DNA of 64,000 nucleotides from Eximiradius sp. (lineage in GTDB: Bacteria > Bacteroidota > Ignavibacteria > Kapaibacteriales > UBA2268): positions 62,001 to 126,000 of the forward strand of contig CAKZLY010000013.1 of the NCBI GenBank assembly GCA_937127445.1. Direction: 5' to 3'. Below the pieces are notes generated by a model. The model was not told the DNA's origin and did not search any database. It saw only the letters and a program-made list of their open reading frames with translations. The position numbers were made by a program, and so were the translations under genes. Below are positions 17,202 through 60,109 of the stretch, piece by piece (the first letter of the stretch is position 1; every line of letters starts with the position of its first letter).

Positions 17202-17209
17202 GATTTGTG

Positions 17210-19082: not shown

Positions 19083-19093
19083 AGGAGAAACAA

Positions 19094-19474: not shown

Positions 19475-19498
19475 TAATTAAAAATAATGAGGCGAATA

Positions 19499-40231: not shown

Positions 40232-40609
40232 TTATTTTTGTTTAATAATATTTTCAACATCAGAAACAAAGGTAGTTGTGTTTATCGGTTTAGGAATATA
40301 ACCCGTAAAGCCAATATTAACGAATTTCTGTCTATCCTGAGTAGTTGCAAATCCAGTAATAGCAATAATAGGAGTTGCTGAATGAATATCAATTTGCCGC
40401 ACTTGATAATAAAGGTCAGTGCCATTCATATCTGGCAAAAGTATATCCATAATAATCGCTTTCACAAGATTAGCCGATAACCACTCAACTGCGGGCTTGC
40501 CTTCTTCAAAATCTACTGTTTCATAACCAGCACGTTTCAATAAAGTACAATAAAGCTTCCGGATTGGAGTATTGTCTTCGATTACACAAATCAATTTTTC
40601 TACATTCAT
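40232..40609 (-). CDS. Single-domain response regulator
   Basis: 125 residues from the ATG at 40609, with GGAG nine bases upstream; a TTG at 40624 is rejected. It is a stand-alone receiver domain: acidic E11 D12 pocket, phosphoacceptor D55 in IIMDILLPDMNG, T85 in AITGF and K107 in YIPKP. With no output domain it must act by protein contact or in a phosphorelay. It lies between the OmpA gene (20 bp upstream) and the CHASE-PAS kinase (12 bp downstream), so it probably connects that kinase to the surface proteins of the operon. Confidence 0.9.
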   Translation of the reverse strand: MNVEKLICVIEDNTPIRKLYCTLLKRAGYETVDFEEGKPAVEWLSANLVKAIIMDILLPDMNGTDLYYQVRQIDIHSATPIIAITGFATTQDRQKFVNIGFTGYIPKPINTTTFVSDVENIIKQK

Positions 40610-40629
40610 AAAAATTATCTCCAATTAAT

Positions 40630-42009
40630 TTATCTTGGAACAACAATTATTTCGACACGCCTATTCTTACGTTGATTAGCAGGAGTATCGTTCGGAGCAA
40701 CAGGGATGAGAGCGCCTCGGCTTGTTGCAAGAACACGATTTGCCGGTATTCCTTTTTGATTAACCAAATAATTTCGCACATTAGTTGCGCGGGTAGCAGC
40801 ACGCTGAGTGTTCTGTGGCAATGTTCCTTGGTTGTCGGAGTGTCCAGTAATACGAATTTCAAAGTTTGGATTGGCTCGCAAATAATCGGCGAGCAGGTCC
40901 AGATATTCTATAATCTGTGGGCTTAGATTTGTTGTTTCTGGCTTATCAAAACTAAATGCAACCATCTGATTCGGGATAATCCTGCGACGAACCTGCCCAG
41001 TGATTTCACGTTGGCGAAGTTCTTCCTGAAAAATTGGAGTAGTAACTTCTGCAACTTCTTCAATTATTTCAGGCAATTCAACCATTGCCAACCACGCTGC
41101 TACAAGCGGCTCGGGCGAACGAAAACCAGTAAATTCCACACCACTCACAGAAACCTGAGCTAAGAACTGCGGAGGCTCGACGTAAGTTTCATCAAATCGC
41201 AGTGTATCAAATTCTCGGTGGTCTTTACCAAATTTTATTGCAAAACCAACTTTAAAGCCAAGAGTTTTCCATGAAGAATTAAGTTGCGATAGTGCTTTTG
41301 TTCCGCCATTGATAGCAACGTATGGATTGCCTATAAAACGTGCTTTGCCTGCATAATCAGCAAGCAGAAACTCATAACCCGCACCTAAATTAAATTCCAG
41401 ACGCACATTAGGTTTTATGCCCGGAACGCGGACAAATTCATCAATTATTCCAGAATTAATATAACGCTTTGCTTGCTTTGCTGTTGCACTGAGGTTAAAT
41501 CCGATATCAAGTCCACCGTAGTAATACAAACCGCCAATATCTGAAAAATACTTTACTTGCGGCGATAGGATTATATAATCAAGAACTGATCTATATTCAT
41601 ACCTGGTCCTCAAACTATCGTCCATTTGATTTGTTCGAGTGGAAAAGGCTTTGCGGTCGAGCAACGAAATGCCAAGCGAATAGGCTAATCTTTCATTTCT
41701 GGGCTTATATTCGGCCATTACACCAAAATAAAAGCCCCCGCCGAAAGTTGAATTGAAACTAATTTGTGGATTATATAAAGTGTCTTTGATAAGTGGATTT
41801 ATCTTGCTGTATAAATCGCCGAAAAACAAATTAATGTTCGGTCCGCCGAACACTCCAAACCACCAATCACCGTAGTAGCGTTCTACCTTCAAGGTGTCCA
41901 GCGAAGGCAAAGTATAAAATTCTCGCAGGTAACCATCAGGAATTTGTGCATTTGAGAATGAAATCGAAAATAGAGTAATTAGCAAATATTGTATTTTTTT
42001 TCTTATCAT
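40630..42009 (-). CDS. OmpA-family outer-membrane protein
   Basis: 459 residues. A signal peptide (MIRKKIQYLLITLFSISFSNAQ) precedes a barrel-like half (about 45-275) with repeated glycine-aromatic strands. A linker of about 60 residues leads to an OmpA peptidoglycan-binding domain. Its core is ITGHSDNQGTLPQN, with ATNVRNYLVNQKGIPANRV and NRRVEIIVV at the end. It links the outer membrane to the cell wall. The ATG overlaps the stop of the WD40 gene by one base (TAATG). In T9SS bacteria OmpA-type proteins such as PorE anchor the secretion ring; a similar role is speculative. Confidence 0.88.
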   Translation of the reverse strand: MIRKKIQYLLITLFSISFSNAQIPDGYLREFYTLPSLDTLKVERYYGDWWFGVFGGPNINLFFGDLYSKINPLIKDTLYNPQISFNSTFGGGFYFGVMAEYKPRNERLAYSLGISLLDRKAFSTRTNQMDDSLRTRYEYRSVLDYIILSPQVKYFSDIGGLYYYGGLDIGFNLSATAKQAKRYINSGIIDEFVRVPGIKPNVRLEFNLGAGYEFLLADYAGKARFIGNPYVAINGGTKALSQLNSSWKTLGFKVGFAIKFGKDHREFDTLRFDETYVEPPQFLAQVSVSGVEFTGFRSPEPLVAAWLAMVELPEIIEEVAEVTTPIFQEELRQREITGQVRRRIIPNQMVAFSFDKPETTNLSPQIIEYLDLLADYLRANPNFEIRITGHSDNQGTLPQNTQRAATRATNVRNYLVNQKGIPANRVLATSRGALIPVAPNDTPANQRKNRRVEIIVVPR

Positions 42010-43889
42010 TAATTATTTGTAATAAATCTTGTGTTTAAAATAAATCCACTATCAGAAATTAAATTAACAAAATATATGCCATCGGACAAATTCATTTTTC
42101 GTAAAATTTGTGTAGTCCCGCTGTGTAAATATATATCTTCCTGCTCGCTAATTTGCCTTCCAGTTATGTCGAAAATTTGCAATTTATACATTGCTTCTTC
42201 TACTAAAAACAAATTAAGAGTAAGAATATTGTTTGAATATTTTGCATTAATCTTAGGTTTATCGAAAACCAGAATTTCTTTGTCGCTATCCCAGAAACAA
42301 TTAGAGATGACCTTAACAATCGATGATTCACCGAAGAAATAGTAAAAATCGGGATTAGTTGGAATTATCGTATCAATTGTAATGATAGACTTACCAATTT
42401 GCGAACCTAAGGCAAGAAAATTTAATTTTTCAGAAACTCCATTAGACACCTCGCCACTCATATTATACTGTATTTTGCCGGGTATTAGTTCATTATCCCA
42501 GTAGAGCAAATTGTGAGGGTAATTGGCGTGAAGTTCGAAGAAATATCTATTGCGAGGCATTTTACTCGGTTGATAATTGTGACTTACTTTAAGTTCAACA
42601 ATTTTCTTTTCACCGAATTTGGCTTGAATATCTTGCAGATGGACAGCAAACTTATACCCACAATTCAGTGAAATAGTGTCCTGCTGCGAAGTTATTTCAG
42701 GTAATTGCAATAAAATGAACGAGCCATCACGAGCCGAAGCAGCAAGATATTTTCCATTACTTGAAATTGTAGAATAAATGAACTGCGAATTGTATCTATG
42801 TTGGTAGAAAAGCGAACCTGTGAGCAAATCCACGAAATTCAAATTACTATCCAAAGAACCAGAAGCAAAATACTTCCCGTTTTTCGGTACAACAACCGAA
42901 CGAACGTGCCCACTATGCAGTTCTATTTCGCGGGACAATGACAAATCTGGGATCAGCCACGAACGCACTTTTCCGTCTGCTGCTGCCGATAAAACCAACG
43001 GAGCGCCACCAGCAAAATCAACATCAAATACAACAGTATTTTGATTGCCCAGACCGTGCGAGCCGAACTTACGTATATCGTCTGTAACCGTATTTATTAG
43101 ATGGAGCGAACCGTTGTATGCACCGCAGAGTAGGCTATCGCCCGTTTGAGAGAATGCGATGCTATAAATCTCATTTCCCTCAGCTGACGAATCAACCCGA
43201 TAAGTCTTTACAAAATCAAACTTCTGATAATCGAAAACACCGACAAATCCACTATCTGCACCGAAAGCAATGATTTTTTTTGTTGGATGGTGGGCAATTC
43301 TTCGCACATTACCGGAAAAAAGACCTATCCCAATATCTTTTTTTTCTATGCGAGCAGCATCGAACATATAAATCCCGTTTACTGTACCAACAAAAAGTGT
43401 GTCCGCTGATGGTGTCGGCAGAACGAAACGAATTTGCCCAAATTGTTGCAGATTTATTGTTTTAATAAGTCGGCGATTTGCAATATCCCAGAAATTCACC
43501 TCATTTGCGTTGGCGGTAACAAGTGCAAAATCTTGTACTGCAAAAAAAACTGAACGTATTTCCGAAGTATGTGCATTTTCTCTGTGCCAGAGCACAACCG
43601 GTTTGGAATAATTTTCAAAATTTGCAACAATTTGTAAATTTTTAGATTTCACATAGGGAACTCGAAACAAAAAATAACCATCTTTCGATGGAATTCTTCC
43701 AAAAAAGTAACTTACGGAATCATCGAAACCGGTAATATCAACAAAATTGAAACTATTAGGCTGCAAATTTAAATAAACTGTATCATCAACGAAGTAGATA
43801 GGACGAGGATTGGTTACAATAATACTTTGAGAATGCAGGATACTTAAATGTATCAGCAAAAGACAATATATTATAAGAAATGATTTCAT
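42009..43889 (-). CDS. Secreted WD40-repeat protein with T9SS type A sorting domain
   Basis: 626 residues. A signal peptide (MKSFLIIYCLLLIHLSILHSQ) leads to an N-terminal PEGA-like part, then about seven WD40-type blades (90-390), for example GHVRSVVVPKNGKYFASGSLDSNLNFVDLLTG. A beta-rich linker follows. The last 80 residues fit a T9SS type A domain: NNILTLNLFLVEEAMYKLQIFD, then GIYFVNLISDSG. The propeller presumably mediates protein contacts at the surface. It starts 5 bp after the upstream gene and shares TAATG with the OmpA gene. Confidence 0.82.
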   Translation of the reverse strand: MKSFLIIYCLLLIHLSILHSQSIIVTNPRPIYFVDDTVYLNLQPNSFNFVDITGFDDSVSYFFGRIPSKDGYFLFRVPYVKSKNLQIVANFENYSKPVVLWHRENAHTSEIRSVFFAVQDFALVTANANEVNFWDIANRRLIKTINLQQFGQIRFVLPTPSADTLFVGTVNGIYMFDAARIEKKDIGIGLFSGNVRRIAHHPTKKIIAFGADSGFVGVFDYQKFDFVKTYRVDSSAEGNEIYSIAFSQTGDSLLCGAYNGSLHLINTVTDDIRKFGSHGLGNQNTVVFDVDFAGGAPLVLSAAADGKVRSWLIPDLSLSREIELHSGHVRSVVVPKNGKYFASGSLDSNLNFVDLLTGSLFYQHRYNSQFIYSTISSNGKYLAASARDGSFILLQLPEITSQQDTISLNCGYKFAVHLQDIQAKFGEKKIVELKVSHNYQPSKMPRNRYFFELHANYPHNLLYWDNELIPGKIQYNMSGEVSNGVSEKLNFLALGSQIGKSIITIDTIIPTNPDFYYFFGESSIVKVISNCFWDSDKEILVFDKPKINAKYSNNILTLNLFLVEEAMYKLQIFDITGRQISEQEDIYLHSGTTQILRKMNLSDGIYFVNLISDSGFILNTRFITNN

Positions 43890-43894: not shown

Positions 43895-45208
43895 TTATTT
43901 ATTCCGAACATACAGTACTTTAACAATAGCGCGAGAGAGTTCAACACCCGGATCGTTAATCGGATATGCAATAAAAACAATGTCGTAGCTTCCCTGAGAA
44001 GTAATCTCCGAAGCTTTGAAGTAAGTTTCGTGCCAGCCGCGAGGAGTAATGCGCGATTCGAGCAAATCGTTCGAAGAATTATCACGCAAAGTTGCTATCT
44101 GCTTGCCTGAGCGGTCGTAAACGTAGCAGGAAAGCCGAACATCATCGCGGACAAAATAGCGAACTTTTGTTTCAGAAACAAAAGGGTTTGGGTCTGCTTG
44201 GGCAAATTCTATAACAGCATTTGGAACAGGAACCAGGCGAGTAGCAAGTTTGATAATTCTATCGTTCTCGTCTTGATAATAAAGTCTGTAAATGTACTCC
44301 ACACCACGATATTCAATATCATCTGTAATTATGCCGTATTCTTTGCCCGTTGGTGAACTGTATAGACCAGTTAGCATACTGGAAAATTTCGGGTCGTTCC
44401 AATCAGCAACAGTGACAGTAAAGGCAGCGTCCGGAATATCTTCCAAATTCATATCTGCCGAAGGAACACGCACTGCACGCTTGATAATAAAGCCCTTGGT
44501 TTTGTATTCAGAGTGGGTTTTGAACCAGAGTTCCACTTTTAAGTTTCCGACGTAGTGAGCAAAGAAGTAATCAAGCGATGTTGCAGGTGGTTTGGTGGGG
44601 TCGTCTTTATATGATACAAGAGAAGTAGAAACATCTCCCATTTCAATGTTATCATCTGTTTCAACATCTAAAATCTCTATTGGAATAGGATCTCCATCAT
44701 GATATTTAAAAGCAACTGCCTGATAATAATTCGTGGGACGCTTCCAATAAATTTTTTCTTCAATTGGCGAACCATCCCGTGTTGAAAGACGAAAACGACC
44801 AATTTTCACACTCGTATCAGGTGGTATTAGAAGCACATCATTAAGTGTTTCGGGACCCAAAACAATTACTTGAATCCTATCTTTCAGAGTACCAGTGAAA
44901 ATTTTATATGGACGACCACCAGGAAGTACAACGGGCAATTCGCTTGTTTGAGGTATCATTTCAAGTTTCAAATTAGTGTAATCATAATCTGGCATATTAG
45001 CAAATTCAAATTGAAATGTAGAATTAGCATAGTACCGCCAGATATCGCTTGTTCGCTGCATATAAATATCAAATTCAAAAGTGCTTGGAGATGCTTTATA
45101 TGAATTTCTAACAGATGCAACAGCCAGTGTGTCGTCTATAAGCACCTGAGATTGAAGTGAAATAAGCGATAAAATGAAAACACTTAATATTGATATAATA
45201 TATTTCAT
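43895..45208 (-). CDS. Secreted protein with FlgD-like Ig C-terminus
   Basis: 437 residues. A signal peptide (MKYIISILSVFILSLISLQSQ) is followed by a beta-rich region whose segment YYANSTFQFEFANMPDYDYTNLKLEM does not match a family I can name. The C-terminal 90 residues (AQADPNPFVSETKVRYFVRDDVRLSCYVYDRSG and on) resemble FlgD-type Ig domains, close to T9SS sorting domains. It lacks the terminal strand pattern I would require to call one. It overlaps the preceding gene by one base (TAATG) and is 5 bp from the WD40 gene. Confidence 0.7.
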   Translation of the reverse strand: MKYIISILSVFILSLISLQSQVLIDDTLAVASVRNSYKASPSTFEFDIYMQRTSDIWRYYANSTFQFEFANMPDYDYTNLKLEMIPQTSELPVVLPGGRPYKIFTGTLKDRIQVIVLGPETLNDVLLIPPDTSVKIGRFRLSTRDGSPIEEKIYWKRPTNYYQAVAFKYHDGDPIPIEILDVETDDNIEMGDVSTSLVSYKDDPTKPPATSLDYFFAHYVGNLKVELWFKTHSEYKTKGFIIKRAVRVPSADMNLEDIPDAAFTVTVADWNDPKFSSMLTGLYSSPTGKEYGIITDDIEYRGVEYIYRLYYQDENDRIIKLATRLVPVPNAVIEFAQADPNPFVSETKVRYFVRDDVRLSCYVYDRSGKQIATLRDNSSNDLLESRITPRGWHETYFKASEITSQGSYDIVFIAYPINDPGVELSRAIVKVLYVRNK

Positions 45209-47295
45209 TATGGGATAGCCGAAACTCTATTTCTATTGTTGAAGCTAATGTTAAAATCTCGTGTAGTGATAATTCCATCCATATTCATATCGCCGACAAG
45301 ATAGCCATTGAATAAATTATATTCCCAAATGTTTGCATCAGGGATGATAGAGTAAAAATCTCTATCATCAATTCGACCGTTTTCGAAAATACTGCCGTTC
45401 ATTTCGCCGGCAATCAAGGCATAAACAAAACTTCCATCAAGATTTTTATCAACACGTTTCAGCGAAGAAACACCACCCATTACTAAATCAGGTGAGGTAA
45501 AATCTAAACTGCGGGTTACCCCGGGCATAATTGAAACCTGCTCTTTGGTAATTACTGCCAAATGGTTTCTGTGGCGAATTGCAACATAGTAATCGCTGCT
45601 ATCCAATCGGTTTGTCTGGCTATAATTTGCAACTGCGATCACCTCATTACCGTATATATCAACTAAACGACCATCTCGCTTGACAAGGTAAGTGCGAAAA
45701 ATACCCGGTTGAGTGAAGCTTTTGCGAAATTCTACAACCACCCAATCAACTACTGAATCAGGAAGCTGCGTTGTAACGTAGAATTGCCTCATCGGGTCCA
45801 GGTTATACGGATAAATATCAGGTGGAGGAACCGGCAAATAGCCTCGCTGACGAAGGTCGTCCGCCATCGAGCCAAAACGATAAGCACCTTCTAAGAATAC
45901 TTTACCCGCAATCTGAAAAAGTGCAGCCGCAGTACTACCTATTGCGAAATAACCTAAATTGTTAATGTTTGTTGCATAACTAAATGCCCAACCACGAGCT
46001 GTGTCCCATTGCGGTTCGGCAGAAGTTTGCAGATCAACCCAGGAATTTGCGAACCAACTTTGCAATTTTAGGAGCTCAAATTGTAAATTGTTTTGTTCAT
46101 CAAGAGTATCAGTTTGTGAGCGACGCCATCCATAACCGAAAAGCATATTTGTTCCGACATCAACAAATTCGCCTGAGGAATTCTTCCCACGAATTTCAAA
46201 GAAACGGCGAACTTTTGTATTGCCCAAAGGTTGCATCGGGAAAGTTGCTGGACGAACAGTAGCAATCAACTCAGTTATACCATTAGCCGAGTTTTCGTCA
46301 GGGAAAATGGCATAAGTGAATGGATTGTGCAAAAGCATTCTTTCGCCACCGGTACGGACACGAGTAAGCCGCAATGTTCCGCTAATTTCAGCATTTGGAT
46401 TGTTCTCATTATAGACAGGATTTTTTGTGGATGCAATTGTCAGTGTATCTTGCAAAAAAATTCTGCCACCGACGTAAAGGCTATCGTTTACTGCAACATT
46501 TTTATCAATAATCAAGTCACCTGAATTTGCTTGAATTAGTTTTTGCAATGAATTTGCATTTGATGGAAGCTCACCGCTTGCAATAATTGAGCCATTACCC
46601 GAATAGCGAACATCTACGCGCCCTTCAAAAATTGGCTCGACTGATAAACTGCTACCGGTAAAACGTTCGATTTCAGTAGAATCTGCCATTGCGAAATTCT
46701 CGGCTTCCGTATTATTGAGAGTGCCGCGAGTAAGTGTTAGTTTTTCGGTAATCTGAAACCCACCGCTGACTACATTCACGCCAAAAGGATTATCAATATT
46801 TAGACGTGAAAATTGACCATTTGCTAAAATGTTCTGCGGTGCATTATCGTTGCTCAAGCGCAAATCGCGTGGACCATCGTAGCGTGCGTCGCGATTGACA
46901 ACAGTTGAACGTGCTATAACGTCTTCGGGTTGAAGTCCAATCCAGCGAGTAGTAAAATCGGCGCCATCGACAATTATCAACGAATCCAAAACAATCAAAT
47001 TGCGAGTCCGATTGTTCTGATCCTTAAAATCGGCAACAATCTTTTTAGCATTGTTTTTTAGCACAAGTTGATTGTAAACGATATTCGGGACTACTTGCTG
47101 AGAACCTTCGCGTTGCTGCAAAAATTCGACACGACCACCCAATGTATCGGGCAAAGCATTTACCTGCCCATTTTTAACTTTGATAGTTCCTTTGTTGTTG
47201 ATTTTACCACCGGAATTATCCAATACATATTGAGCTGCCATCTGTGTGGTAGCTAATATTATCATTACAACAATATGTATTAGTATTCTTTTCAT
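45208..47295 (-). CDS. Surface protein with dockerin-like C-terminus
   Basis: 695 residues. A signal peptide (MKRILIHIVVMIILATTQMAAQ) leads to an N-terminal module (KINNKGTIKVKN to VPNIVYNQLVLKNN) that is paralogous to that of the protein at 47389. A long beta-helix-like region follows, with GGERMLLHNPFTYAIFP near the middle. The end carries two calcium-loop-like segments: AGEMNGSIFENGRIDDRDF and GDMNMDGIITTRDF, where D669, N671, D673 and D680 form a good dockerin-type loop. No T9SS domain is visible. It is the first gene of the six-gene operon, downstream of a long-loop terminator. Confidence 0.72.
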   Translation of the reverse strand: MKRILIHIVVMIILATTQMAAQYVLDNSGGKINNKGTIKVKNGQVNALPDTLGGRVEFLQQREGSQQVVPNIVYNQLVLKNNAKKIVADFKDQNNRTRNLIVLDSLIIVDGADFTTRWIGLQPEDVIARSTVVNRDARYDGPRDLRLSNDNAPQNILANGQFSRLNIDNPFGVNVVSGGFQITEKLTLTRGTLNNTEAENFAMADSTEIERFTGSSLSVEPIFEGRVDVRYSGNGSIIASGELPSNANSLQKLIQANSGDLIIDKNVAVNDSLYVGGRIFLQDTLTIASTKNPVYNENNPNAEISGTLRLTRVRTGGERMLLHNPFTYAIFPDENSANGITELIATVRPATFPMQPLGNTKVRRFFEIRGKNSSGEFVDVGTNMLFGYGWRRSQTDTLDEQNNLQFELLKLQSWFANSWVDLQTSAEPQWDTARGWAFSYATNINNLGYFAIGSTAAALFQIAGKVFLEGAYRFGSMADDLRQRGYLPVPPPDIYPYNLDPMRQFYVTTQLPDSVVDWVVVEFRKSFTQPGIFRTYLVKRDGRLVDIYGNEVIAVANYSQTNRLDSSDYYVAIRHRNHLAVITKEQVSIMPGVTRSLDFTSPDLVMGGVSSLKRVDKNLDGSFVYALIAGEMNGSIFENGRIDDRDFYSIIPDANIWEYNLFNGYLVGDMNMDGIITTRDFNISFNNRNRVSAIP

Positions 47296-47388: not shown

Positions 47389-49548
47389 TTATTGATTAAT
47401 TTCAATAATGCCTTCGTTGTTAATAGTACCATTATTTTGAATTGCATTAGTTTCAAGTACTGCTGGGTTTGGACCATAAGGAGTAATCCAGATACCATTA
47501 AATCCAGGATTAGTAGTAAACGACGATTTAGCAGCAATACCTGTTCCAAATGCTGGTTGCATTGTATTTGTATTCAAGTTCTGCAGCGTAACTCCGAGAG
47601 CTGATTTAGTCTTGAATACATAAGTTGCTCCGTTATCTTCGTTGCCAAGGATAAATGCAGCATTTGTTAAGTTAGCTACAACAATTGAATTTGCGGCTGG
47701 ATTTGTACCATAAACGCTTGCTTCAGATGTAGTGTTGCCAGTAGCAGGAGTTCCTGCAAATGGACCAGCAATACCAGCATAAACCATATGGCGAATTTCA
47801 ACATTGTCATCTTCAGATGGGCGAGTACCTTCATCCCAAGTATTCGGATTTGTCCAGCGACCGTCTGTAATTGAGTAGAAAGTAGTCGGACCAGCAGCAA
47901 GAACAATGTCGTTTCCGCTTGCGAACAATCCGATGCCGTTAGGCAAGTTAGCAGTTGCGGTATTACCAATACCAGCAAGTTCAACATAACCAAGAGAAGC
48001 TGCCGTTGCAGCAGTTCTTGTTGGGATTTGGCCAGTACCAACCTTTTCACGAGCTGGCTGGTTGGATGCTTCATACATACGAAGTGATGCTTGAGTGTAT
48101 GGAGCAGTCCAGTTTGTTCTTTCGTCTTCACGATAAGCAGCACGAACAGTCATTGCAAAAGCACCTGTATTGCCGGCATAGCTTAGGTTGATTTTTCTAT
48201 TTACATCAGTAGTTGAGTTATAATCGAATGGATTTTGACCAGGACGAACATTCAATGTAATCGAAGTTGGGTTATCTGCATCGGCAACCAAAGTAACGAT
48301 GGTGTTAGTATTGTTGAAAGTATATGCTTGAGCAGTTGTATTAGTTACACGCGAGAATAGACCAACAACTTCGTTCATACTAGTGTAGGTTGCGGTAGCT
48401 GTTGGAGTGTTCATACGGAAGGTGCCATTATTGGCTGCCATATCAAGATTGCCACCATCAAGCGAGAAATTACCGCAAACGTTAATATCGTTGCCATAAG
48501 ATGCAGTTCCACCAGTTTTAAGTCCAGTACCGGAGAGGAACAAATTACCATAACGTTTGCCATCCTGGTTCAAAGTTGGGAGAATAGTTTGAGCACCACC
48601 GTTATAAGTAATGTTCGAACCGCAAGCAAAGTTAAGATTTGTACCATCGCCATTGTTTGCGATGCTGCTCGAAATAACAAGATTATTACCAGTACCTAAA
48701 TTAAGGACACCTGTTGAGCCGATAGTTGTAGCACCTGCAAATGTAACTGTACCAAGGTTGCCAGCACCTCCATCGTTAGCAGTTAAAGTACCGTTGAGAG
48801 CTAATGTACCATTGAAATTCACAGCACCAGTACCAGTTACATTAAAGTTTGAACCATTTTGCGTAGTAACTGCATCGCTGAAAGTAACAGATCCGGCACC
48901 AGTATTAACAGTACCAGTTCCTTGAACTGTAACAGGAGCCCCACTTGCAAAGGTAGAAGCACCAGCACCAAGATTCAAAGTACCAGCAACTGCAAAATCG
49001 TCTGTTGCATTAACCTGATATGCAGTTACAGTAGTTGCAGCAACAACTGTAGCTTGGCTTGAAGCATTGATAATATAGTATGGATCAGTTGTTGGATAAA
49101 TATTCTGCGAACCACCTGTAGCAGCATAGTAGAATGTGCCTGTTCCAAAGTTTAGCGATGAAGCAGTCGAATAGAACGGATAAGTGGAAAGTTGAGCATA
49201 GCCTGCAAGAGGAGTAGGACAAGCTTCGCCGATAACGCGAATACCGTCCTGCATCACCTTGGAGCCACCCGACACAACAAGTCTCTGATAGTAATAAGGC
49301 TGAACGACCTGATTAGCTGTCGTTGAAGCCCATTCGACAACACCAGGAATAGCGTTAGCCGCGCTTTGACCTAAATTAGCCGAACCTGTAATAGTGGCAT
49401 TTGTAGCTTTCAGCTTTATAACTCCACCACAGGTTGCATTATAATTTCCATTGTTGATAAAGCCTTGAGCAAATAGTTCTATTCCGACTAAATTCAGAAC
49501 TATTGCTGCAAGAAAAATTGTCCAATTTTTTTTCATTCTGTTTCTCAT
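47389..49548 (-). CDS. Repeat-rich surface protein related to the giant 49659 protein
   Basis: 719 residues from the ATG at 49548; ATGs at 49536 and 49587 are alternatives. After a signal peptide the N-terminal module (VIKLKATNATITG to VVEWAST and YYYQRLVVSGG) is paralogous to the start of the protein at 45208. A glycine/threonine/asparagine-rich beta-helix-like part (190-340) follows, with units such as GTLNLGAGASTF. Near residue 560 comes FYSITDGRWTNPNTWDEG, the module found six times in the giant protein. The C-terminus ends in INNEGIIEINQ, with no sorting domain. Confidence 0.75.
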   Translation of the reverse strand: MRNRMKKNWTIFLAAIVLNLVGIELFAQGFINNGNYNATCGGVIKLKATNATITGSANLGQSAANAIPGVVEWASTTANQVVQPYYYQRLVVSGGSKVMQDGIRVIGEACPTPLAGYAQLSTYPFYSTASSLNFGTGTFYYAATGGSQNIYPTTDPYYIINASSQATVVAATTVTAYQVNATDDFAVAGTLNLGAGASTFASGAPVTVQGTGTVNTGAGSVTFSDAVTTQNGSNFNVTGTGAVNFNGTLALNGTLTANDGGAGNLGTVTFAGATTIGSTGVLNLGTGNNLVISSSIANNGDGTNLNFACGSNITYNGGAQTILPTLNQDGKRYGNLFLSGTGLKTGGTASYGNDINVCGNFSLDGGNLDMAANNGTFRMNTPTATATYTSMNEVVGLFSRVTNTTAQAYTFNNTNTIVTLVADADNPTSITLNVRPGQNPFDYNSTTDVNRKINLSYAGNTGAFAMTVRAAYREDERTNWTAPYTQASLRMYEASNQPAREKVGTGQIPTRTAATAASLGYVELAGIGNTATANLPNGIGLFASGNDIVLAAGPTTFYSITDGRWTNPNTWDEGTRPSEDDNVEIRHMVYAGIAGPFAGTPATGNTTSEASVYGTNPAANSIVVANLTNAAFILGNEDNGATYVFKTKSALGVTLQNLNTNTMQPAFGTGIAAKSSFTTNPGFNGIWITPYGPNPAVLETNAIQNNGTINNEGIIEINQ

Positions 49549-49658: not shown

Positions 49659-52600
49659 TTATTCACCTATTTGAATAACACCTTGATTTTGAATAGTAGC
49701 ATTATTAATCACATTTTTCCTAACTGTAAGAGCATTTATCTCGTTAACATTCAAAGTTGCGTTATCTTTGATAAATAAATTTCCTAATATTACTATTGGG
49801 GTATTAACAAATTTTGTGCCATTCCCAGAAAGAATAACATTATTTGGATAATTCGCTAATCCAAAAGGATTTGGGATAAGTGTCTGAGTGCCATAGAACT
49901 CTATATTTGAGTACTCCCCAAGCAAATAATTAGCAAAACCTGATAGTACACTTGTTGTTGGATTTACATTGCCACCAAAAGCAATTGTTGAGCTATCAAG
50001 CAAACGGAATGAAGTACTTCCACTGATGATGTTTGCTAACATTGTGCCCTGGTTGTGCAAATCAAGGCGACCGTTGTAGAGTAGCGTGATACCACCAACA
50101 GAAGGATTTGCAACGTTCAACCTAACATTATGAAGCGAATCGTTCCAACCAATAATAACTGAATCTCCTGCAAACTCATTTACGTTGCTTGGGAATTCAC
50201 CTTCGGGAGCAAAAATTGTTCTGCTTTCGTTGAGAGCCCAAGTGTTGTGGTCGTTCCATAATCCGCTTTGTTTGCTATAAAAGGCAAGATTTTTCTTTTC
50301 ACCGATGTAGAAATCACCAAAACCGCTCCAAAAATCGGCAGAATTTGCAATTTCAACAGATGCAACAGAAGTATTCCAATTAAGTTGAGAATATTGATGT
50401 AAATTCCAAAGAGGAGTTTCGGCAGGATATGATTTACGTAGCAGATATGCATTCGATACATTCGCACCTGGAAAATTATTAACTTCAGAAGCAGGGAACG
50501 TGAATTTTGTATTAAATTGCCTTGTGCCAAGAGTAAAATTGTTTTTGTTTCGAATTTGCCACCAATAATTTACACGTCGAGTTTCATGAATTCTTGCTGA
50601 ATTTATGCTCGGATGAGAATTTGCAATAACAGAAACAAAACCAGAATTGCCACTACCCGAAGTGAAGGTTAATTCGGCAGGAGTATAAACATTTCCAAAC
50701 CCAACTTCAAATTTAAATGAGCCTGCTCCCGTACCAAACGGACGCAAAAGCAATCCATCAATATGCCCGCTACCGTTTCGAACAATAGTAGTTGTGTCGT
50801 GCAAAAGTTTGACAACTTTATTATTGGTTCTTGCATTGATAACAGAATTATTAGTATTTGCAAATGTTAGACGACGTTCGATTTTAATTTCAGCTGAATC
50901 AATTGAACCAGACAAAATTAAGTTCCCGTTATTTTTGTTTATAGTTAGATTATAGAAATTAACACCGGAAGTGTCGTTCATTACAACGTATTGATTACCA
51001 TTCCCATTGATTGTAACATTTGAATTACCGCCAAAAACTTGTGTCCCATTATTTGCGATAAGATTTCCAAGCAAATTAACATTAGCACTGCCAAAGGACA
51101 AATAACCAAGGTCAACGCGAACAGTGTCATCAATGGTAAATGTGGTAGGCGAGAAAGTAACAGTTTTGCTAGATGTACCAGAGTTGTTTACAATTACAGT
51201 TTTTGGGTTAGTCGGGCCATCGCCAGTAGCCTGATTTAAAGAACCGACATATTCGAAAATACCTTTGCCGTAAGAACGAATATTAGCTGTTCTAATAGAA
51301 CCAATATTGGGATAAAGCCCAGTAAGAGAATTAAACCCATAGGCATCATCAGTAGCAATATAACAACTATCACGAAGTTCGAAAGAAAGCCCGCGAATAT
51401 AGCGTTCGTCGAGAAGGACAAGCTTACCTGGCAAGCCATTGATTTTCTCAACCGTAAGCGAGCGGATCCGCGGATTGCTTTGATTAACTGTTACAACGCG
51501 CCCATTACCGATAAAAACTCTGTCTGTTTCAAGATTTGGCCATCTCGGAGCAACTGCACCATTATAGCCCTCAATTGACCAGGTGTTAATATCATTCCAA
51601 TTGCCTGATTGACGAGAATAGAAACGCAAGCCAGCAATTTCAGCAACAAAGAAATCACCAAATTCAACGTTATTCCTAGTTGTAGTTGAGGAATCGGTTC
51701 GTAAATCTGGAACAGTTGTAAACCAAGCACCAGGAGCATTCCAGGCAGGAGTACGGCGGAAGTGCTCCATAATACCAAAAGAAGTACCAACTTTCAGGTC
51801 GCCCGAAGGTTGATAACCTTTTCTGAAAAATGTTGTTAACGCAAAAGTTCTGCCTGAACCTAATTCAAATTGTGGACTACCTGCCGGAACAATCCTCCAG
51901 TAGCGGTCAATCTGAGTATTCGGTTGATGCAGATCGCAATTTGCTAAATCTGGATGTAACACTCCATAGGCAGTAACTGATAGCAAGCCTTGCGTTCCTG
52001 AGCCAGAGGATATATCTAATTGAACAGGAGTATATGCATCGGACGAACCAACAGTAAATAAAATATTTTGTGAGCCATTATTAATCCAGCGTCGGAGTTC
52101 ACCATTGACGTGTCCTTGGCTAAATCTCTGGATAGAAGCCAGATCGATTGATGAAGTCCCAACCTGCACATATCTATTATTTGTATTAACAATTCCAGTA
52201 TTTCCAATAGAAAATTCGAGAGTGTTTTTAATTATCAAATTGGAATTTGGATAATTTACGTTGTTCGACAATTCAACGGAACCACCGTTAGACTTACTGA
52301 TAGCTAAATCAAAGAATGGGATATTGTCACTGCGTTTTATTTTAACAGTCTGAATTTGCTTTGTAGGTGGATTTGAACTGCTATTCCCAACAAAAGCAAA
52401 TCGCCGCGTACCAGTATTCCCCGTTCGGAAAAGTCCATCAATAGTTAAATCACCGCCTAAATTGACCGTATTACCATTCATATTAAAGATTGAATTATCG
52501 CGAATGGTAAGGTCGTTTCGTATGGTTATGATTGGACTACCGAGCAAAAGCTCTTTTCCGTAAGTATTAGCAATATCGAGATTCCAGAAAGGGACAGAGG

Positions 52601-55600
52601 AGATGATATCAAAATTCTGAGTATTTGACAAGAGCGAATCTGGATGACCAATCTGAACAGTACCGCCAGTTACCGTATTTACGGTGGTGTTAACAAAATA
52701 GTCGGGGTCCTTTTCTCCAATTGCACTTGTATCCATCGTGCGAAGAACAACAACTCGACCTCCTGTCATCGTAAATTTTGAATTAGCTTCGCCAAAATCG
52801 AAAGCAGCACGGCGTTGTGAACTGTTGGTAGTTGAACCTTTAATCATCACTCGAATTTCTGCACTATCACGCAAACGGAAATCTACAGCTGATGTTAAGA
52901 ATCTTCGACGTAGCGAACCAGCTACATTGAGTTTGCTACCACCTTGGAAATCAATTATTGTAACGCTTTCATATTGGAAATGTTCATCTTTCTGATTACC
53001 TATATTCATTGTACCGTTGAGAAGCCACACGGAAGCATTTTGCCCGCAAATTAATCCATCACTATATGTTACGCTACCATCTCGAACAACAAGCCCGACT
53101 AAATCACCCAAAAAGACATCACCATCTCCGTCGGTCGAAAGCGTTATGTTAGCAGCATTATCGTGGTAATACATTCCTGCATCCAGAATGAAATCCACAC
53201 TCGGTCGAGTGAGCACTGCATTAGTAAATGCATTTGAAAACGATTGAGATTCGTTATGCAAGTTATAGATAGAGTCGGATTTAACAACTCGAACAGTACC
53301 AATCGAGGTATAGTTTCCTTCACCTCTGATATAAGAATGTTTACTGCCTAAGAATATCAATCGAGCGTTAACTGTATCATTAGCAAATAATCTAACGCCA
53401 GCAGGACTTGATGCGTCATTTTGGAATACGCCTTCAACATATAAAGTATCGATGCTTTTTACAGGAGGTCCCTGCATTTTACGCAAGTAGCCATTTGGTC
53501 CGACACGAATAGTGTTTCTAACGCGAAGAGATTTATTATTGAAGTATCCAAAATCAAGCATTGAGGTATTCGGTGCAGACGTAGCAATCTGAACACTATC
53601 GACAGAGAAACGAGGAGTTTGATTGAGTGTAATGAGATGATTTGAACCAATTATGACAGTATCGCCCTGGAAAAAGCCTGGCGTATTTAGAGCTACAACG
53701 TTACTACTATGTGGATTCCCTGCATTGAAAAAATTAGTCCAAGAGCGCGGATCTTCCCAAGAACCATATTGGCGGCTCCAATATATTCGTGGTCGTTCAA
53801 AAGATGAGGGCTCGCCAGCTGTCCAGTCATGGTTGGGCAGAGTATAGGCATTATCAACTATAATATATTTGTTAGTTGTATCTATTTGAAGGTTTGAAGC
53901 ATTGAAAATAGCAAAGCCCCAGCCCGGGTCGTTAGGTTCGACATCAGCTCGACGGTAAATAAGCGGTCTATAGTTCAATATATTGCCCACACGCTCAGCA
54001 TCGTTGTATCTGAGCCTTAGTGAAGATGTTCCATTACTCAAAACAATATTACTTGTGCTGATGCTCCAATACTTTCTTAACATATTAGGATTGGACCCTG
54101 GAGCTTGAGGATGAGAATAAGCGCTTCTAAGAGTGATTTCTAAAAAATTGTTCGTATTGTATGTTTGGTTGGTAAGCGTAACTCTTGCTTCGCTGTATCG
54201 GACAGGACGCAACCCTAATGAGTCTTCCCCAATTGGGAAAGTAAATGTATATGTTTGGTTTGTAACTACTGGATATATTTTTCTTATGCGAGCAGTATTA
54301 GAACCGCCGCTTACTTTAAACAAACGGGAAGCGTTAAACAAATTCAAGCTATCGATTATTGAATTAGCACCAAATGTTGTAATTGTATTATCGTTCAGTG
54401 CAAAAATTGTGTTTGTCCGGAACTGGACAGAATCGCTAAACTGTATATTTACAGAAGAAGTAATATTACCAGAAGGTTTATCAATTCTAACTGTTGAAGG
54501 AAAAGCGGTTAAGTTTGCTGAACCTCGAATTCTCTGGCTCATAGCATCAATAAAGTAAATACGGCGATTAGATGGGTTAGCTTGGTTATGAAAACCTACA
54601 CCATTTGAGTAATTAACTACATCGCCTTGAATGTTAATCTCTCGTGCTCCATCACGGTTACGGAAACGCCCCCCACGGAAAACAATACTATCGCGAATAG
54701 TAAGCGGTGCATTGTTTGTAAGGTTAACATATCGATCTGCTGCACTACGATTATAATTGATTTCAAGAGATGCAATTGTTGAAGGAAGACCTGAACCTGT
54801 TTCTTGAACTGCATCTGATGCCGCACCAATATAAGCAAAGTTATTATTACCTAAATTATTCCAGTTGAAATTAATAATCGATGAAGATGTAAGCTGCCTA
54901 ATATTCCCTTGTGTAGTAGAGTTCTGCACAATTCCTTGAACAGAGCCGATGTAGAGTTTCCCACCATTTTTCATAACAAATTGGTCGGTGCGAATATAAT
55001 TTTCCCCCGGCATAACGAGCTTACCAACTCCATTATTAGATTTTTCGAGCAGTACATATCGCAAATCAACATTGGAAAGATTGAAATAAACTGAATCGCC
55101 ATCCCCGATAATAGCGTAATCACGATAAGAAGAATTATTGTATCTTGGATAGTCATTGACAGTGTTAGTTGTGATAGCATAACCTTGTTCGGTGTCTTCG
55201 TAGAGAACAGTAGCGTAAGCCCATGTATTTGGGTCGGTCCAGTTGCCGGAATTACGAGAATAGAAAATACGTTCAGTAACAGTCGGTGGGTCCTCGCCAA
55301 TCATAAGCACAATAGAAGAAGCAGGTGAAAATTGTGAAGTAACATTAAAGATATTGTTCCCACCTAAAGAAGGATTATTGAGAGCGATATCTAATTGAGT
55401 AGTTGTATTCCCACTTGTAGAGATATTAGATGTTCTTGTCCAAAAACCAGTTGTAAGAAGTCTAAAACCTCTATAATTTATAGGATTAATTCCTCCACGC
55501 GGTTCATCTTGAGTGAAAAACAATCTCGTATTTAAAGTATAATTACCTTGGATATATTGAGGTGTCATACCATACGGTAAAGTAATTTCATAGTATCTTT

Positions 55601-58600
55601 GGATATTAGTATTTGGGTTTATACTGATTGGATTGAATTGTGGATGATTACCGTCAACAGCAATGATTTCAATAAGTCCTCCTTGTTGCCTTTGACCAGC
55701 TAAAATTACAAACATAGAATATTTAGTACGTGTACCGATAGGAAAAATTCTATTAGAACCTGTTTCATTTGCACCAATAAATCTTATTAATCTTCCAAGG
55801 ACATAACCAACATTTGAATAGTACGCACTATCTGCAAGACTTAAATCATATCTGAATAACGCATAATATCCACCCGTAGAATCATAAACCAATAATCTTT
55901 TATTATTTGTAAATACGTCAAAATTAGAGCGGTTCCCAATTTTAAACCAAAACACAGGAGTACGTATATCAAAACGAGAAATAACATTCCCAGAGCGTTT
56001 CGAAAGACTAATTCTATTAAAAGCAAGGAATTGTGTAGTATCGAATGTCCCCCTTATGAATTGATTATCATTTCCATTAAAGACAACAACACCATGCCAA
56101 AGAGTTGTATCATTTGCATTCCTTTGTGCTGGCGTAAGAGAATTGAAATTTGATATACTATCAGGTCTGAATCTCCCAGGATTAAAAGTAGCTCCATTAT
56201 CTATAACAAAATTACCACTAACCTTTGTGATAGCATTGCTAATGTCAATATTGCCACTTTGGAAATACAAACTATCCGTAATATATAAAATTACTGGTGT
56301 CGTTCCTGTTATAGAAAGTGTTCCAGAGGGCTTATTGACCTTGAAAGTTCTCATTGTAAGTGGCATACCATTACCCGTAACTTGGGCACCGGTGCCAGCA
56401 TAGATAAAATGGCCCGAATTATGACTATTGAAATTAAATTGGCGAGTGGTTGTTCGAATACAGCCGGTGTTGCCTGATGCGGTAATACCTTGAGCATGCC
56501 TAATAGTCAGCGCACCTGCGCTATCCAATCTGAATGTACCAGCACCCGTTAGTAGGATTAAACCGTCAGCAAATTCGAGATTGCCGCCGGGGAAACCACT
56601 ACCACCTGTTTCTACAATAACTGACCTACCTGCATCAACACTATGGTTAACGTTTAGAATTACTGTTTTTCCGTTGCCTATGCGAATATTGTCGCGGCTT
56701 TCGGGAGCTCGGGATGATGGTTCGGTGTTGGTATAGCTTGCAGTCGACCAGGTATTTGGGTTGTTCCAATTGCCATTGGCAATAGAGTAGAAAGTGAAGA
56801 CACGCGGCTCACCAATGATGAAGTAATGCGGAGAATTGTTGTCCAAATCACTGTTATTAATCATAACAGTCGAGAGCGGGTTGCGAACACCAAGTTCAAC
56901 ACGTCTCCATCGCCCCGTGTTAATAGTTGTATCACGGTGATATATTTCAAAATTGAGCGGGTTGCCTCGCCCTATGGTATCAACGGGAGTAAAGAAAAAC
57001 TCTGCGTCGTAAGTTCGAGTGGAAGCAAGAGTAAATCTATTTTGTGAGGTTGTATCCGCGTGAATCACCCATACTTTACGAACATTTCGAGTGGTATCCA
57101 ATTCGGGACCATTTGGCAATTGAGTTTGAATAACTGAGCGAGTTATATTTGGTGCAGCGGTATCAACAAGCACATAAACATCAAGATAGCCAGCAGCACC
57201 GCCCCAGCCATTTATCGATAGGTTAACTGGCGCATAGTGATTTCCTAACCCAATTGGGAATAGTTTTGATACAGAGTTTTCACCAAACGGCAATCGCAAA
57301 CGTCCATCAATATGCCCGGGATTTGCTCCGGGACGAGTAATTGTTCCATCCACCACTATTGGTTTGTTTGGAAGAGAGGTAGCATTGCGTCCACTGATAT
57401 TACCCTGAATAAGCGCTAAGTTATTTGTTACTTTAATCAGTGAGTCACCATCTAAAAGCAAATTGCCAGAAGTTTTATTTACAGTTAAATTATAAAATGA
57501 ACCTTTACCATTATTTATGATGGTTTGGTTGCCTACGCCGTTGAAATAAACACGTCCATTTTGAGCAGCAAAAGTGCCAGAATTTATAAAATTACCACGA
57601 ATTGCCAGAGCAGTGCTATTCAAGTCTCTAAATGTAGCAGGGTCGATAGTCAAATTACCATTAATTGTTATGCTATCTAAGTAATTTACAACACCATTTA
57701 TTGCAGTTCCCATAATACGAACGTTATTGAAGACGATTCCATTCGAAAGAATACTCGTAACTTTGCCATCAGCTTCGAATGTAACGAGTCCGTTTCCAGC
57801 GTCGAACTGCCCACCAGGCTGAGTTACCCACGAATGCAGCAACTTAATATGTTGGTCGTTAGCAACAAGTCGCCCCGAGATAAGATTAATATTATTACGA
57901 ACAAGCAGGAAATTATTCGAAGGATTGGCATCGTTTGGCGGCATTACAATTTTGTTGCCCGTACCGGCAATATTTAAATTATGGAATTTTAATCTATAAA
58001 CTAAATCTCTTGGTGTGGGATATCCTGTGTTGATATTTTGATTACCATTCCCATTGAAAACAACAGTGGAACCAGTTACAATAAATCTATCAGCAATAGG
58101 AGTTGGATGAAATGTAAGAGCAGAAATATCAAGTTCGCCACCAATTCTAATTTCACCGGTTGGGTCTAATGTAATATAGGTATTTGCAGCACGATTGCCA
58201 GTAATTCTGATATTGTGATATTGAGTAACAGCAGGTTCGCCAGGCGATGGACTCCCACTACTTGGCAACCGAAACGAACCTGAACCGTCAAAAATAAGGG
58301 TTCCCGCAGTGAATACTGCATTTTTATATTTAGTTGGATATGTTTGCATAACAAAATAGCCACCACGCATAATAATTTGGCGAACGGTTGTATCTGCTGT
58401 TTCGCCGTTTGCAGTAAAGTTCCCATTTTTGAAGAGGTGGAATGTGCCTTCATTAACTACCAATGAGTCTTTTATCAAAATAGATTTAGTAAGCGAAACT
58501 GTATCGGTAGGATTAGTTTTATTTATTATAAGACTTCGGACAATATCAGGTAATCCGTCACCGGTCACTTGGTTTAAACCACCAATGTATTCATAAATTG

Positions 58601-60035
58601 CATTCTGCGAGTATGACCTATTTTGAGTGCGAATGTTGCCCGCATTTGCATTCTGTGTAATACCATCGGGGCTCGAAATATTTAATTTACCACCATCTTC
58701 GACAAACAGAGAATCGCCTTGCACAAAAGCATTAAAAACTGGAAAAGACAATTGACCTGTCGATTGCACTTGAATGGTTTTGATAACAGGAGTTACCGCC
58801 GAAACAGAGACATTTCGCCCGTTCCCGATGAATACTTTGTCGTTTATTGTCGAGGGATAGCTTCCAGCAGGAGCACCGAAATAACCTTGCTTAGACCAAG
58901 TATTTGGGTCGAACCAATCGCCATCAGCACGACTGTAATAAAATGTGCTGATTGTTTCTTCTTGTCCTACAGTCCATTCTCCATCAAGCAAAAGGTAGGC
59001 ACCACTTACAGTGTCTTTTTTATTAACTTCATCAATATAAAACCTATTATTGACAGGTTCAATTCCATAGCCAGCACCGGGATTTATATAAAATGTCCCG
59101 TTCGGACCGTCGTATGGTCTGTAAAACAGAGTCATCAAATATTGGGTTTCTAATCCCTGCACTTCATTATCGTTATAATTAAATCTTAAACTATATCCGC
59201 CGGGCTGAACGAAAATATTAGCAAAATCTGTTTTCCAGTACTTTCGCAATGAAACGCCCTGCACTTCCACATTTGGGTGTTCCGCAGCGATACAACGAAC
59301 TGATAGGGTTGCGTTTGCAGTTGTTGTCATCTCGCCTGCTGCGAAAACATATCTAATTGATGAATAATTGCGAACAACTGGATTTGATGTGTCGAGTGGT
59401 GTCCCAATAGGGAAACGAACGTTTAAATCGGAGGTTAAGCTTGTAATAACAGGCAATTTTTTAATAATTGCTCCGCTTAGCTGGCGTTCGCCACTTGTCA
59501 TTACAAATTTTTGCGAATTAAATAAATCGACTATCGGATCGTTTGAGTAAGTCGATGTTGAATCTGGGTAAATATTTGCACCGACTTCAATTATCAGATT
59601 TGAACGGTGTATATTAAAAATATTATTCGAAATAAGCCGTATAGAGTTTGAAATTGTAAGGCTGCTAAGCAAAGGCGAAACATTTACCATTGAAGTGCCA
59701 TTTTTCATTACCCAGATACGCTCGAATGTCTGGTTTGGTAGTCCAGCAATTGAATCTTGCAACGCTCCAAAAAAACGCAACACTCCAAAACCGTTCTGGT
59801 TGTAGTTACCTAAATTTCTAAAAATTCCCGAAATCCATAAATTGCTTGCTTGTGAATTACTATGCGATAAAGTAGCATTCGATGCTATTTCGACACCACC
59901 ATTGACAGAAACATTAGCACCTGAATTTACATAAAATACAGCCCCATCTTTCAAATACAATATCTGCGAATGAGTAGAAATTGAACTGAAAAAGGTAAAA
60001 GCAATGATACACATATGTATCAAAGTCTTCCTCAT
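49659..60035 (-). CDS. Giant multi-module surface protein (about 3458 residues)
   Basis: The ATG at 60035 is chosen because GGGAGGG lies eight bases upstream and a signal peptide follows (MRKTLIHMCIIAFTFFSSISTHSQ); an ATG at 60083 is rejected. The chain has almost no cysteine and is rich in Asn, Ser, Thr and Gly. Six modules begin with an aromatic-rich FYSxxxGNWxDPNTW-like motif, followed by a GDxVxIGNGxxV segment like G8-type surface domains. Between them lie long beta-strand repeats such as VNGNLTID and GNGNQNI, and GHIDGxLxRPFG-type segments. The end reads NNATIQNQGVIQIGE with no T9SS domain. It probably forms a long adhesin-like stalk. It lies 110 bp before the 47389 gene. Confidence 0.78.
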   Translation of the reverse strand: MRKTLIHMCIIAFTFFSSISTHSQILYLKDGAVFYVNSGANVSVNGGVEIASNATLSHSNSQASNLWISGIFRNLGNYNQNGFGVLRFFGALQDSIAGLPNQTFERIWVMKNGTSMVNVSPLLSSLTISNSIRLISNNIFNIHRSNLIIEVGANIYPDSTSTYSNDPIVDLFNSQKFVMTSGERQLSGAIIKKLPVITSLTSDLNVRFPIGTPLDTSNPVVRNYSSIRYVFAAGEMTTTANATLSVRCIAAEHPNVEVQGVSLRKYWKTDFANIFVQPGGYSLRFNYNDNEVQGLETQYLMTLFYRPYDGPNGTFYINPGAGYGIEPVNNRFYIDEVNKKDTVSGAYLLLDGEWTVGQEETISTFYYSRADGDWFDPNTWSKQGYFGAPAGSYPSTINDKVFIGNGRNVSVSAVTPVIKTIQVQSTGQLSFPVFNAFVQGDSLFVEDGGKLNISSPDGITQNANAGNIRTQNRSYSQNAIYEYIGGLNQVTGDGLPDIVRSLIINKTNPTDTVSLTKSILIKDSLVVNEGTFHLFKNGNFTANGETADTTVRQIIMRGGYFVMQTYPTKYKNAVFTAGTLIFDGSGSFRLPSSGSPSPGEPAVTQYHNIRITGNRAANTYITLDPTGEIRIGGELDISALTFHPTPIADRFIVTGSTVVFNGNGNQNINTGYPTPRDLVYRLKFHNLNIAGTGNKIVMPPNDANPSNNFLLVRNNINLISGRLVANDQHIKLLHSWVTQPGGQFDAGNGLVTFEADGKVTSILSNGIVFNNVRIMGTAINGVVNYLDSITINGNLTIDPATFRDLNSTALAIRGNFINSGTFAAQNGRVYFNGVGNQTIINNGKGSFYNLTVNKTSGNLLLDGDSLIKVTNNLALIQGNISGRNATSLPNKPIVVDGTITRPGANPGHIDGRLRLPFGENSVSKLFPIGLGNHYAPVNLSINGWGGAAGYLDVYVLVDTAAPNITRSVIQTQLPNGPELDTTRNVRKVWVIHADTTSQNRFTLASTRTYDAEFFFTPVDTIGRGNPLNFEIYHRDTTINTGRWRRVELGVRNPLSTVMINNSDLDNNSPHYFIIGEPRVFTFYSIANGNWNNPNTWSTASYTNTEPSSRAPESRDNIRIGNGKTVILNVNHSVDAGRSVIVETGGSGFPGGNLEFADGLILLTGAGTFRLDSAGALTIRHAQGITASGNTGCIRTTTRQFNFNSHNSGHFIYAGTGAQVTGNGMPLTMRTFKVNKPSGTLSITGTTPVILYITDSLYFQSGNIDISNAITKVSGNFVIDNGATFNPGRFRPDSISNFNSLTPAQRNANDTTLWHGVVVFNGNDNQFIRGTFDTTQFLAFNRISLSKRSGNVISRFDIRTPVFWFKIGNRSNFDVFTNNKRLLVYDSTGGYYALFRYDLSLADSAYYSNVGYVLGRLIRFIGANETGSNRIFPIGTRTKYSMFVILAGQRQQGGLIEIIAVDGNHPQFNPISINPNTNIQRYYEITLPYGMTPQYIQGNYTLNTRLFFTQDEPRGGINPINYRGFRLLTTGFWTRTSNISTSGNTTTQLDIALNNPSLGGNNIFNVTSQFSPASSIVLMIGEDPPTVTERIFYSRNSGNWTDPNTWAYATVLYEDTEQGYAITTNTVNDYPRYNNSSYRDYAIIGDGDSVYFNLSNVDLRYVLLEKSNNGVGKLVMPGENYIRTDQFVMKNGGKLYIGSVQGIVQNSTTQGNIRQLTSSSIINFNWNNLGNNNFAYIGAASDAVQETGSGLPSTIASLEINYNRSAADRYVNLTNNAPLTIRDSIVFRGGRFRNRDGAREINIQGDVVNYSNGVGFHNQANPSNRRIYFIDAMSQRIRGSANLTAFPSTVRIDKPSGNITSSVNIQFSDSVQFRTNTIFALNDNTITTFGANSIIDSLNLFNASRLFKVSGGSNTARIRKIYPVVTNQTYTFTFPIGEDSLGLRPVRYSEARVTLTNQTYNTNNFLEITLRSAYSHPQAPGSNPNMLRKYWSISTSNIVLSNGTSSLRLRYNDAERVGNILNYRPLIYRRADVEPNDPGWGFAIFNASNLQIDTTNKYIIVDNAYTLPNHDWTAGEPSSFERPRIYWSRQYGSWEDPRSWTNFFNAGNPHSSNVVALNTPGFFQGDTVIIGSNHLITLNQTPRFSVDSVQIATSAPNTSMLDFGYFNNKSLRVRNTIRVGPNGYLRKMQGPPVKSIDTLYVEGVFQNDASSPAGVRLFANDTVNARLIFLGSKHSYIRGEGNYTSIGTVRVVKSDSIYNLHNESQSFSNAFTNAVLTRPSVDFILDAGMYYHDNAANITLSTDGDGDVFLGDLVGLVVRDGSVTYSDGLICGQNASVWLLNGTMNIGNQKDEHFQYESVTIIDFQGGSKLNVAGSLRRRFLTSAVDFRLRDSAEIRVMIKGSTTNSSQRRAAFDFGEANSKFTMTGGRVVVLRTMDTSAIGEKDPDYFVNTTVNTVTGGTVQIGHPDSLLSNTQNFDIISSVPFWNLDIANTYGKELLLGSPIITIRNDLTIRDNSIFNMNGNTVNLGGDLTIDGLFRTGNTGTRRFAFVGNSSSNPPTKQIQTVKIKRSDNIPFFDLAISKSNGGSVELSNNVNYPNSNLIIKNTLEFSIGNTGIVNTNNRYVQVGTSSIDLASIQRFSQGHVNGELRRWINNGSQNILFTVGSSDAYTPVQLDISSGSGTQGLLSVTAYGVLHPDLANCDLHQPNTQIDRYWRIVPAGSPQFELGSGRTFALTTFFRKGYQPSGDLKVGTSFGIMEHFRRTPAWNAPGAWFTTVPDLRTDSSTTTRNNVEFGDFFVAEIAGLRFYSRQSGNWNDINTWSIEGYNGAVAPRWPNLETDRVFIGNGRVVTVNQSNPRIRSLTVEKINGLPGKLVLLDERYIRGLSFELRDSCYIATDDAYGFNSLTGLYPNIGSIRTANIRSYGKGIFEYVGSLNQATGDGPTNPKTVIVNNSGTSSKTVTFSPTTFTIDDTVRVDLGYLSFGSANVNLLGNLIANNGTQVFGGNSNVTINGNGNQYVVMNDTSGVNFYNLTINKNNGNLILSGSIDSAEIKIERRLTFANTNNSVINARTNNKVVKLLHDTTTIVRNGSGHIDGLLLRPFGTGAGSFKFEVGFGNVYTPAELTFTSGSGNSGFVSVIANSHPSINSARIHETRRVNYWWQIRNKNNFTLGTRQFNTKFTFPASEVNNFPGANVSNAYLLRKSYPAETPLWNLHQYSQLNWNTSVASVEIANSADFWSGFGDFYIGEKKNLAFYSKQSGLWNDHNTWALNESRTIFAPEGEFPSNVNEFAGDSVIIGWNDSLHNVRLNVANPSVGGITLLYNGRLDLHNQGTMLANIISGSTSFRLLDSSTIAFGGNVNPTTSVLSGFANYLLGEYSNIEFYGTQTLIPNPFGLANYPNNVILSGNGTKFVNTPIVILGNLFIKDNATLNVNEINALTVRKNVINNATIQNQGVIQIGE
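50240..58945 (-). repeat. Six dispersed FYS-GNW-DPNTW modules within the giant gene
   Basis: Motif-bearing segments lie near 58890-58945, 56748-56800, 55215-55270, 53730-53790, 51580-51630 and 50240-50290. Consensus reads FYSRxSGNWxDPNTW. Spacing is uneven, about 1.3 to 2.2 kb. The fifth-position residue and the downstream GDxVxIG differ among copies, so they are old duplications. A seventh copy is in the neighbouring gene near 47835-47885. Confidence 0.8.
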
Positions 60036-60109
60036 CAATTTCCCTCCCGAGTTCAGTATTTTATAATATAAAATTTTGTTCATAAGTTAATTAATAATGA
60101 AATTAGCAA

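Follow-up and report, generated by a model that had tools for sequence, protein, structure and literature searches.

How can a protein of several thousand residues be exported and held at the cell surface when its C-terminus carries no recognised sorting domain? This question is raised by a giant gene found in a 64,000-nucleotide stretch of DNA from Eximiradius sp. (the window, i.e. the whole stretch that was analysed). An uninterrupted frame runs along the minus strand over 49659..60083, that is 3474 codons counted from the first ATG (60083). The ATG at 60035, codon 17 of this frame, is a better start since gggaggg lies just upstream of it, and the giant gene is therefore placed at 49659..60035 (minus strand, 3458 aa); use of the first ATG would lengthen the protein by 16 residues. 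From the preferred start, the protein begins with MRKTLIHMCIIAFTFFSSISTHSQ (59964..60035, minus strand), a hydrophobic N-terminus that, judged by eye from the sequence, is probably a signal peptide. Only six of the 3474 residues are cysteines (0.17%). The preliminary description of this DNA, which did not give the strand, had already mentioned a gene of about 10.4 kb, a signal peptide and a near lack of cysteine, and these points hold, the signal peptide as a probable one. The ortholog from a congener is also 3474 aa long and shares 83% identity; codon positions 1, 2 and 3 differ in 0.144, 0.081 and 0.466 of the codons, respectively, a pattern that indicates purifying selection over the whole length. 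The giant gene is a real and intact protein-coding gene, not a chance frame.

The same description had reported six FYS-GNW-DPNTW modules. Six FYS-GNW-NTW modules were indeed found, starting at residues 381, 1098, 1607, 2101, 2821 and 3268 (3474-aa numbering). Their sequence motifs, all on the minus strand, are FYYSRADGDWFDPNTW (module 1, 58896..58943), FYSIANGNWNNPNTW (module 2, 56748..56792), FYSRNSGNWTDPNTW (module 3, 55221..55265), YWSRQYGSWEDPRSW (module 4, 53736..53783, degenerate), FYSRQSGNWNDINTW (module 5, 51579..51623) and FYSKQSGLWNDHNTW (module 6, 50238..50282). Module 1 adjoins a G8 domain (PF10162; residues 408-474, E 2.6e-10), the only Pfam match in the giant, whose score of 40.7 bits against a cut-off of 22.9 makes it a G8-domain protein; an NCBIfam search of the giant gave no match. 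By its modules, the giant is a G8-type beta-helix surface protein; its end and its proposed partnership, described below, set it apart.

The genome encodes a type IX secretion system (T9SS), with SprA, PorV, PorU and 66 type A tails. One of its type A proteins, encoded in the window (33156-35762, minus strand; TIGR04183, 32.8 bits), carries two nearly identical tandem Fn3-like repeats. As previously stated, no recognised sorting domain is found at the end of the giant: searches for the type A (TIGR04183 / PF18962), type B (TIGR04131 / PF13585) and type C (NF033708) domains, the first two in both Pfam and NCBIfam and the third in NCBIfam, retrieved nothing from the giant or from a set of 29 homologous C-termini. 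A type B domain or another known anchor, which the preliminary description had named as contrary evidence, was looked for and not found. The giant shares its modules and helix with ordinary T9SS type A surface proteins of the G8 / FYS-GNW-NTW kind but, unlike them, has no type A sorting domain. This difference is real, because the genome also has a 2457-aa ORF that is similar to the end region of the giant and does terminate in such a domain. At the scale of the whole genome, no type B tail was found in a search whose control was also silent, and the PorP family (PorP/SprF) gave no match either in this genome or in any control genome. Neither the giant nor P0003 and D695, the products of the two genes that follow it, showed a signal for export across the outer membrane.

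What the giant does carry at its end is a conserved tail of about 21 residues, VRKNVINNATIQNQGVIQIGE (49662..49724, minus strand), with which P0003 also ends (ETNAIQNNGTINNEGIIEINQ, 47392..47454, minus strand). Its consensus is roughly V-x-N-x-G-x-I-x-N-x-G-x-I-E-I-G-stop. N-G-I-N-G-I motifs are easily reached in any beta-helix. The giants of relatives range from about 130 aa (the mini-giants of L047, L089 and L093) to 4880 aa, while their terminal residues are constant. In a set of 782 ORFs from related loci, the tail profile gave 70 matches with E<1e-3, all of which end at most 4 aa from the stop; since these matches include training rows and overlapping loci, they show the position of the tail and not independent events. 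Weaker, internal matches to the profile fall, among other places, at the N-termini of relatives of P0003 and D695. When the profile was searched against the whole genome of Eximiradius sp., only the giant and P0003 were retrieved (E 5.7e-8 and 3.7e-6), the third match having an E of 1.6. With two copies only, the tail is rejected as a dispersed sorting domain in this genome.

Structure prediction, another of the suggested checks, was carried out on the last 420 residues of the giant and gives a beta-helix that reaches the final residue. The AlphaFold model has a mean pLDDT of 88 (90 for the final block) and strands up to residue 418. It comprises a putative beta-sandwich domain (50292..50804, minus strand), whose best structural matches are ankyrin ZU5 (Z 8.1), followed by a right-handed beta-helix at the C-terminus (49662..50291, minus strand), for which the confidence of the model is high. 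Model residues 40-210 align with ZU5-like sandwiches and residues 211-420 with right-handed beta-helices, i.e. a tapirin (Z 8.7, a value near the background of middling Z) and autotransporter passengers. As Foldseek retrieved nothing below E 0.001 from the PDB for the end of the giant, the proposed beta-helix fold rests on VIA-align and on the modelled strands. The modelled end thus resembles the adhesin fold of tapirins and of the passengers Ag43, TibA and IcsA, but these are single-chain proteins that use other export routes, and a sequence search of the PDB gave no match for the end of the giant or for D695.

The giant gene stands in second position in a row of nine closely spaced genes, all carried by the minus strand, from 62371 down to 38024. 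The first one encodes P0002 (60110..62371, minus strand), a fibre-like protein of 753 aa (GIGTxxP...). The giant is followed by P0003 (47389..49587, minus strand; 732 aa), a beta-helix protein that has one FYS-GRW-NPNTW module besides the terminal tail, by D695 (45208..47295, minus strand; 695 aa), which has an N-terminal beta-helix motif LDNSGGKINNKGTIKVK and a dockerin-like C-terminal end, and by E437 (43895..45208, minus strand; 437 aa), whose C-terminal domain is a divergent T9SS type A-like one (weak matches in 3-4 of 12 relatives). Next come a WD40 beta-propeller protein (42009..43889, minus strand) with a T9SS type A C-terminal domain (PF18962 in seven of eight relatives), a probable outer-membrane barrel with an OmpA domain, which by its family binds peptidoglycan (40630..42009, minus strand), a response regulator receiver protein (40232..40624, minus strand) and a membrane sensor protein with PAS and histidine-kinase-like parts (38024..40219, minus strand). 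The dockerin-like end of D695 is rejected as a common sorting domain, as it occurs in this genome on D695 alone. A Ycf48-like repeat protein encoded next to the cluster (35801-37813, minus strand) ends with a dockerin-like stretch and LCSGDINGSYTP and has no recognised sorting domain. Divergent from the cluster, a sensor with solute-binding-like and PAS parts (62577-64000, plus strand) continues past the edge of the window. Elsewhere in the window, two adjoining genes encode similar small proteins resembling UmuD/LexA-type peptidases (29533-29958 and 30022-30453, minus strand), and an Rrf2-like regulator gene precedes SUF-type iron-sulfur cluster assembly genes (12016-20101, plus strand).

The order of the nine genes recurs across many related genomes, and its loci retrieved from the genome collection bear labels of Kapabacteria or of other Ignavibacteria/Chlorobi-type MAGs. 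Relatives of P0003 occur in 51 of 60 related genomes and the giant C-terminus in 42 of the 60 (E<=0.01). In a search of 296 genomes of the phylum, strong and full-length matches were all within the same order; the remaining ones were mostly to inner helix parts of long proteins, and a few weak ones were short or end-reaching (for example, a 193-aa protein of G147). In a related genome that is 100% complete (G021), P0003 with its tail is present and the giant was not detected, while in another (G035) the contig that carries P0003 is not that of the 3486-aa giant (loci L031-L034 and L135 for these two cases). P0003 can therefore manage without an adjoining giant. A LuxR-type regulator gene lies between the giant and P0003 in some relatives (L041:2826-3485, L046:15629-16270 and L095:3509-4171), and a similar one upstream of the fibre gene in L036, L038, L043 and L045.

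In several other species, natural fusions link the proteins that are encoded here by neighbouring genes. In the 46 loci that have both P0003 and D695, these proteins are encoded by separate neighbours in 38 cases and fused in eight. The two proteins are almost complete in L096, L097 and L104, where the tail of P0003 directly abuts the start of D695; in L104, for example, D695 starts immediately after the tail SLDNSGLIANGGKTDI. In L098 and L100, the tail of a mini-giant (LDNKGTVEIGN), nine residues and the start of the mature P0003 follow each other in one chain. In three short fusions (L089, L090 and the L098 type), the joint between P0003 and D695 is inside the proteins, away from the tail. 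Throughout, the order of the domains in the fusions is the order of the genes. The model of the L100 fusion matches tapirin 6n2b (Z 15.3, rmsd 2.4) with 146 residues aligned over 23..195. Its joint is at 131-139. As the aligned range has only 108 residues before the linker, at least 38 of the 146 are located in or beyond it. The model is poor in its D695 part, and its linker block (131-140) has a pLDDT of 64. According to this model, the L100 fusion would be one unbroken helix across the joint. A fused joint is no proof that separate chains stack.

Altogether, the following model can be drawn for this locus. The giant would be the outer part, long and variable, of a surface structure specified by the nine genes. 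The giant, P0003 and D695, although separate chains, would follow one another end to end in a single continuous beta-helix: the tail of the giant would meet the N-terminus of P0003 and the tail of P0003 that of D695, as if the unfused chains stacked like the fused ones. The stack would be held at the surface by E437 and the WD40 protein, through their T9SS-like tails, and by the OmpA protein. The giant itself has no sorting domain and would be exported by the T9SS with or after its tailed neighbours. We regard this end-to-end stack held by cluster neighbours, taken as a whole, as the best explanation, with about an even chance of being right. Against it speak the cases of G021 and G035, the ease with which N-G-I-N-G-I motifs are reached, the low pLDDT of the linker block and the poor D695 part of the fusion model, and the short fusions joined away from the tail. 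Within it, stacking may be deduced from the fusions and the models, and the proposal that the stack is retained by the OmpA protein and by the neighbours bearing T9SS-type ends, with which the giant would leave the cell, is a weaker deduction. Because each tail is placed in the fusions right next to the N-terminus of the protein that comes after it, the giant is likely anchored by docking to its neighbours, of which two have T9SS-like tails. Export and anchoring were both considered at first as unexplained by visible features; this is too strong, as the conserved tail and the fusions suggest a route for anchoring.

Three other explanations have to be weighed against this stack. According to the first, the tail would act as a T9SS sorting signal that has so far escaped recognition, an additional type of C-terminal domain (CTD) that takes the giant and P0003 through the translocon. 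Like a sorting domain, the tail is conserved and strictly C-terminal, the genome encodes a T9SS, and CTDs of other types than A and B are known (type C; PMC10202324). This reading appears quite unlikely, as the genome has two copies of the tail versus 66 type A tails, as the tail belongs to a beta-helix, unlike the Ig-like domain of type A, and as it is internal in natural fusions, which known C-terminal signal types do not tolerate. It is equally improbable that the tail merely caps the beta-helix of a giant that the ordinary T9SS exports via internal elements and that is then released or held non-specifically: the ends of beta-helices need protection and a cap would be conserved and terminal, but P0003 is the only other protein with this end and, at the fusion joints, it continues into the next helix rather than closing the helix. 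Finally, a giant that would be a periplasmic scaffold, kept in the periplasm or freed by lysis, would agree with the lack of a detected outer-membrane export signal in the giant, P0003 and D695, but has little chance of being right: the protein is made up of beta-helix and sandwich domains over 3458 residues and contains hardly any cysteine, it matches adhesins and autotransporter passengers in structure, and its neighbours bear T9SS tails.

The proposed stack can be compared to SprB/SprF and PG1035/PorP/PorE, in which a partner protein, and not a lipid link, retains a CTD adhesin (PMC9143113, PMC10202324). As in these systems, a giant adhesin-type gene is near an outer-membrane barrel gene, and there is a PorE-like OmpA component. 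Unlike them, the giant has no type B CTD and its tail is a beta-helix end common to P0003. The giant does not belong to the type B group, because the type B domain was tested and is absent; by analogy, its system would work somewhat like SprB/SprF or PG1035/PorP/PorE and is not a member of them. In the literature, no paper was found on the nine-gene cluster or on piggyback export by T9SS, and nothing relevant that joins Kapabacteria and type IX secretion.

The structure that bears the giant is predicted to be probably involved in adhesion. The most complete version of the proposal, a surface fibre made of gene-ordered polypeptides stacked by their open helix ends, in which a CTD-less giant is exported via the T9SS and anchored by CTD-bearing partners, is tentative and, in all its parts together, unlikely. 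Docking onto tailed neighbours may be a possible answer to the question of how very large proteins without a sorting domain stay on T9SS bacteria. The natural series of giants, from 130 to 4880 aa and both fused and unfused, would be useful for studying how beta-helix chains join. Kapabacteria are a lineage known nearly exclusively from metagenomes, and the cluster provides them with a phylogenetically broad marker structure encoded by a single locus.
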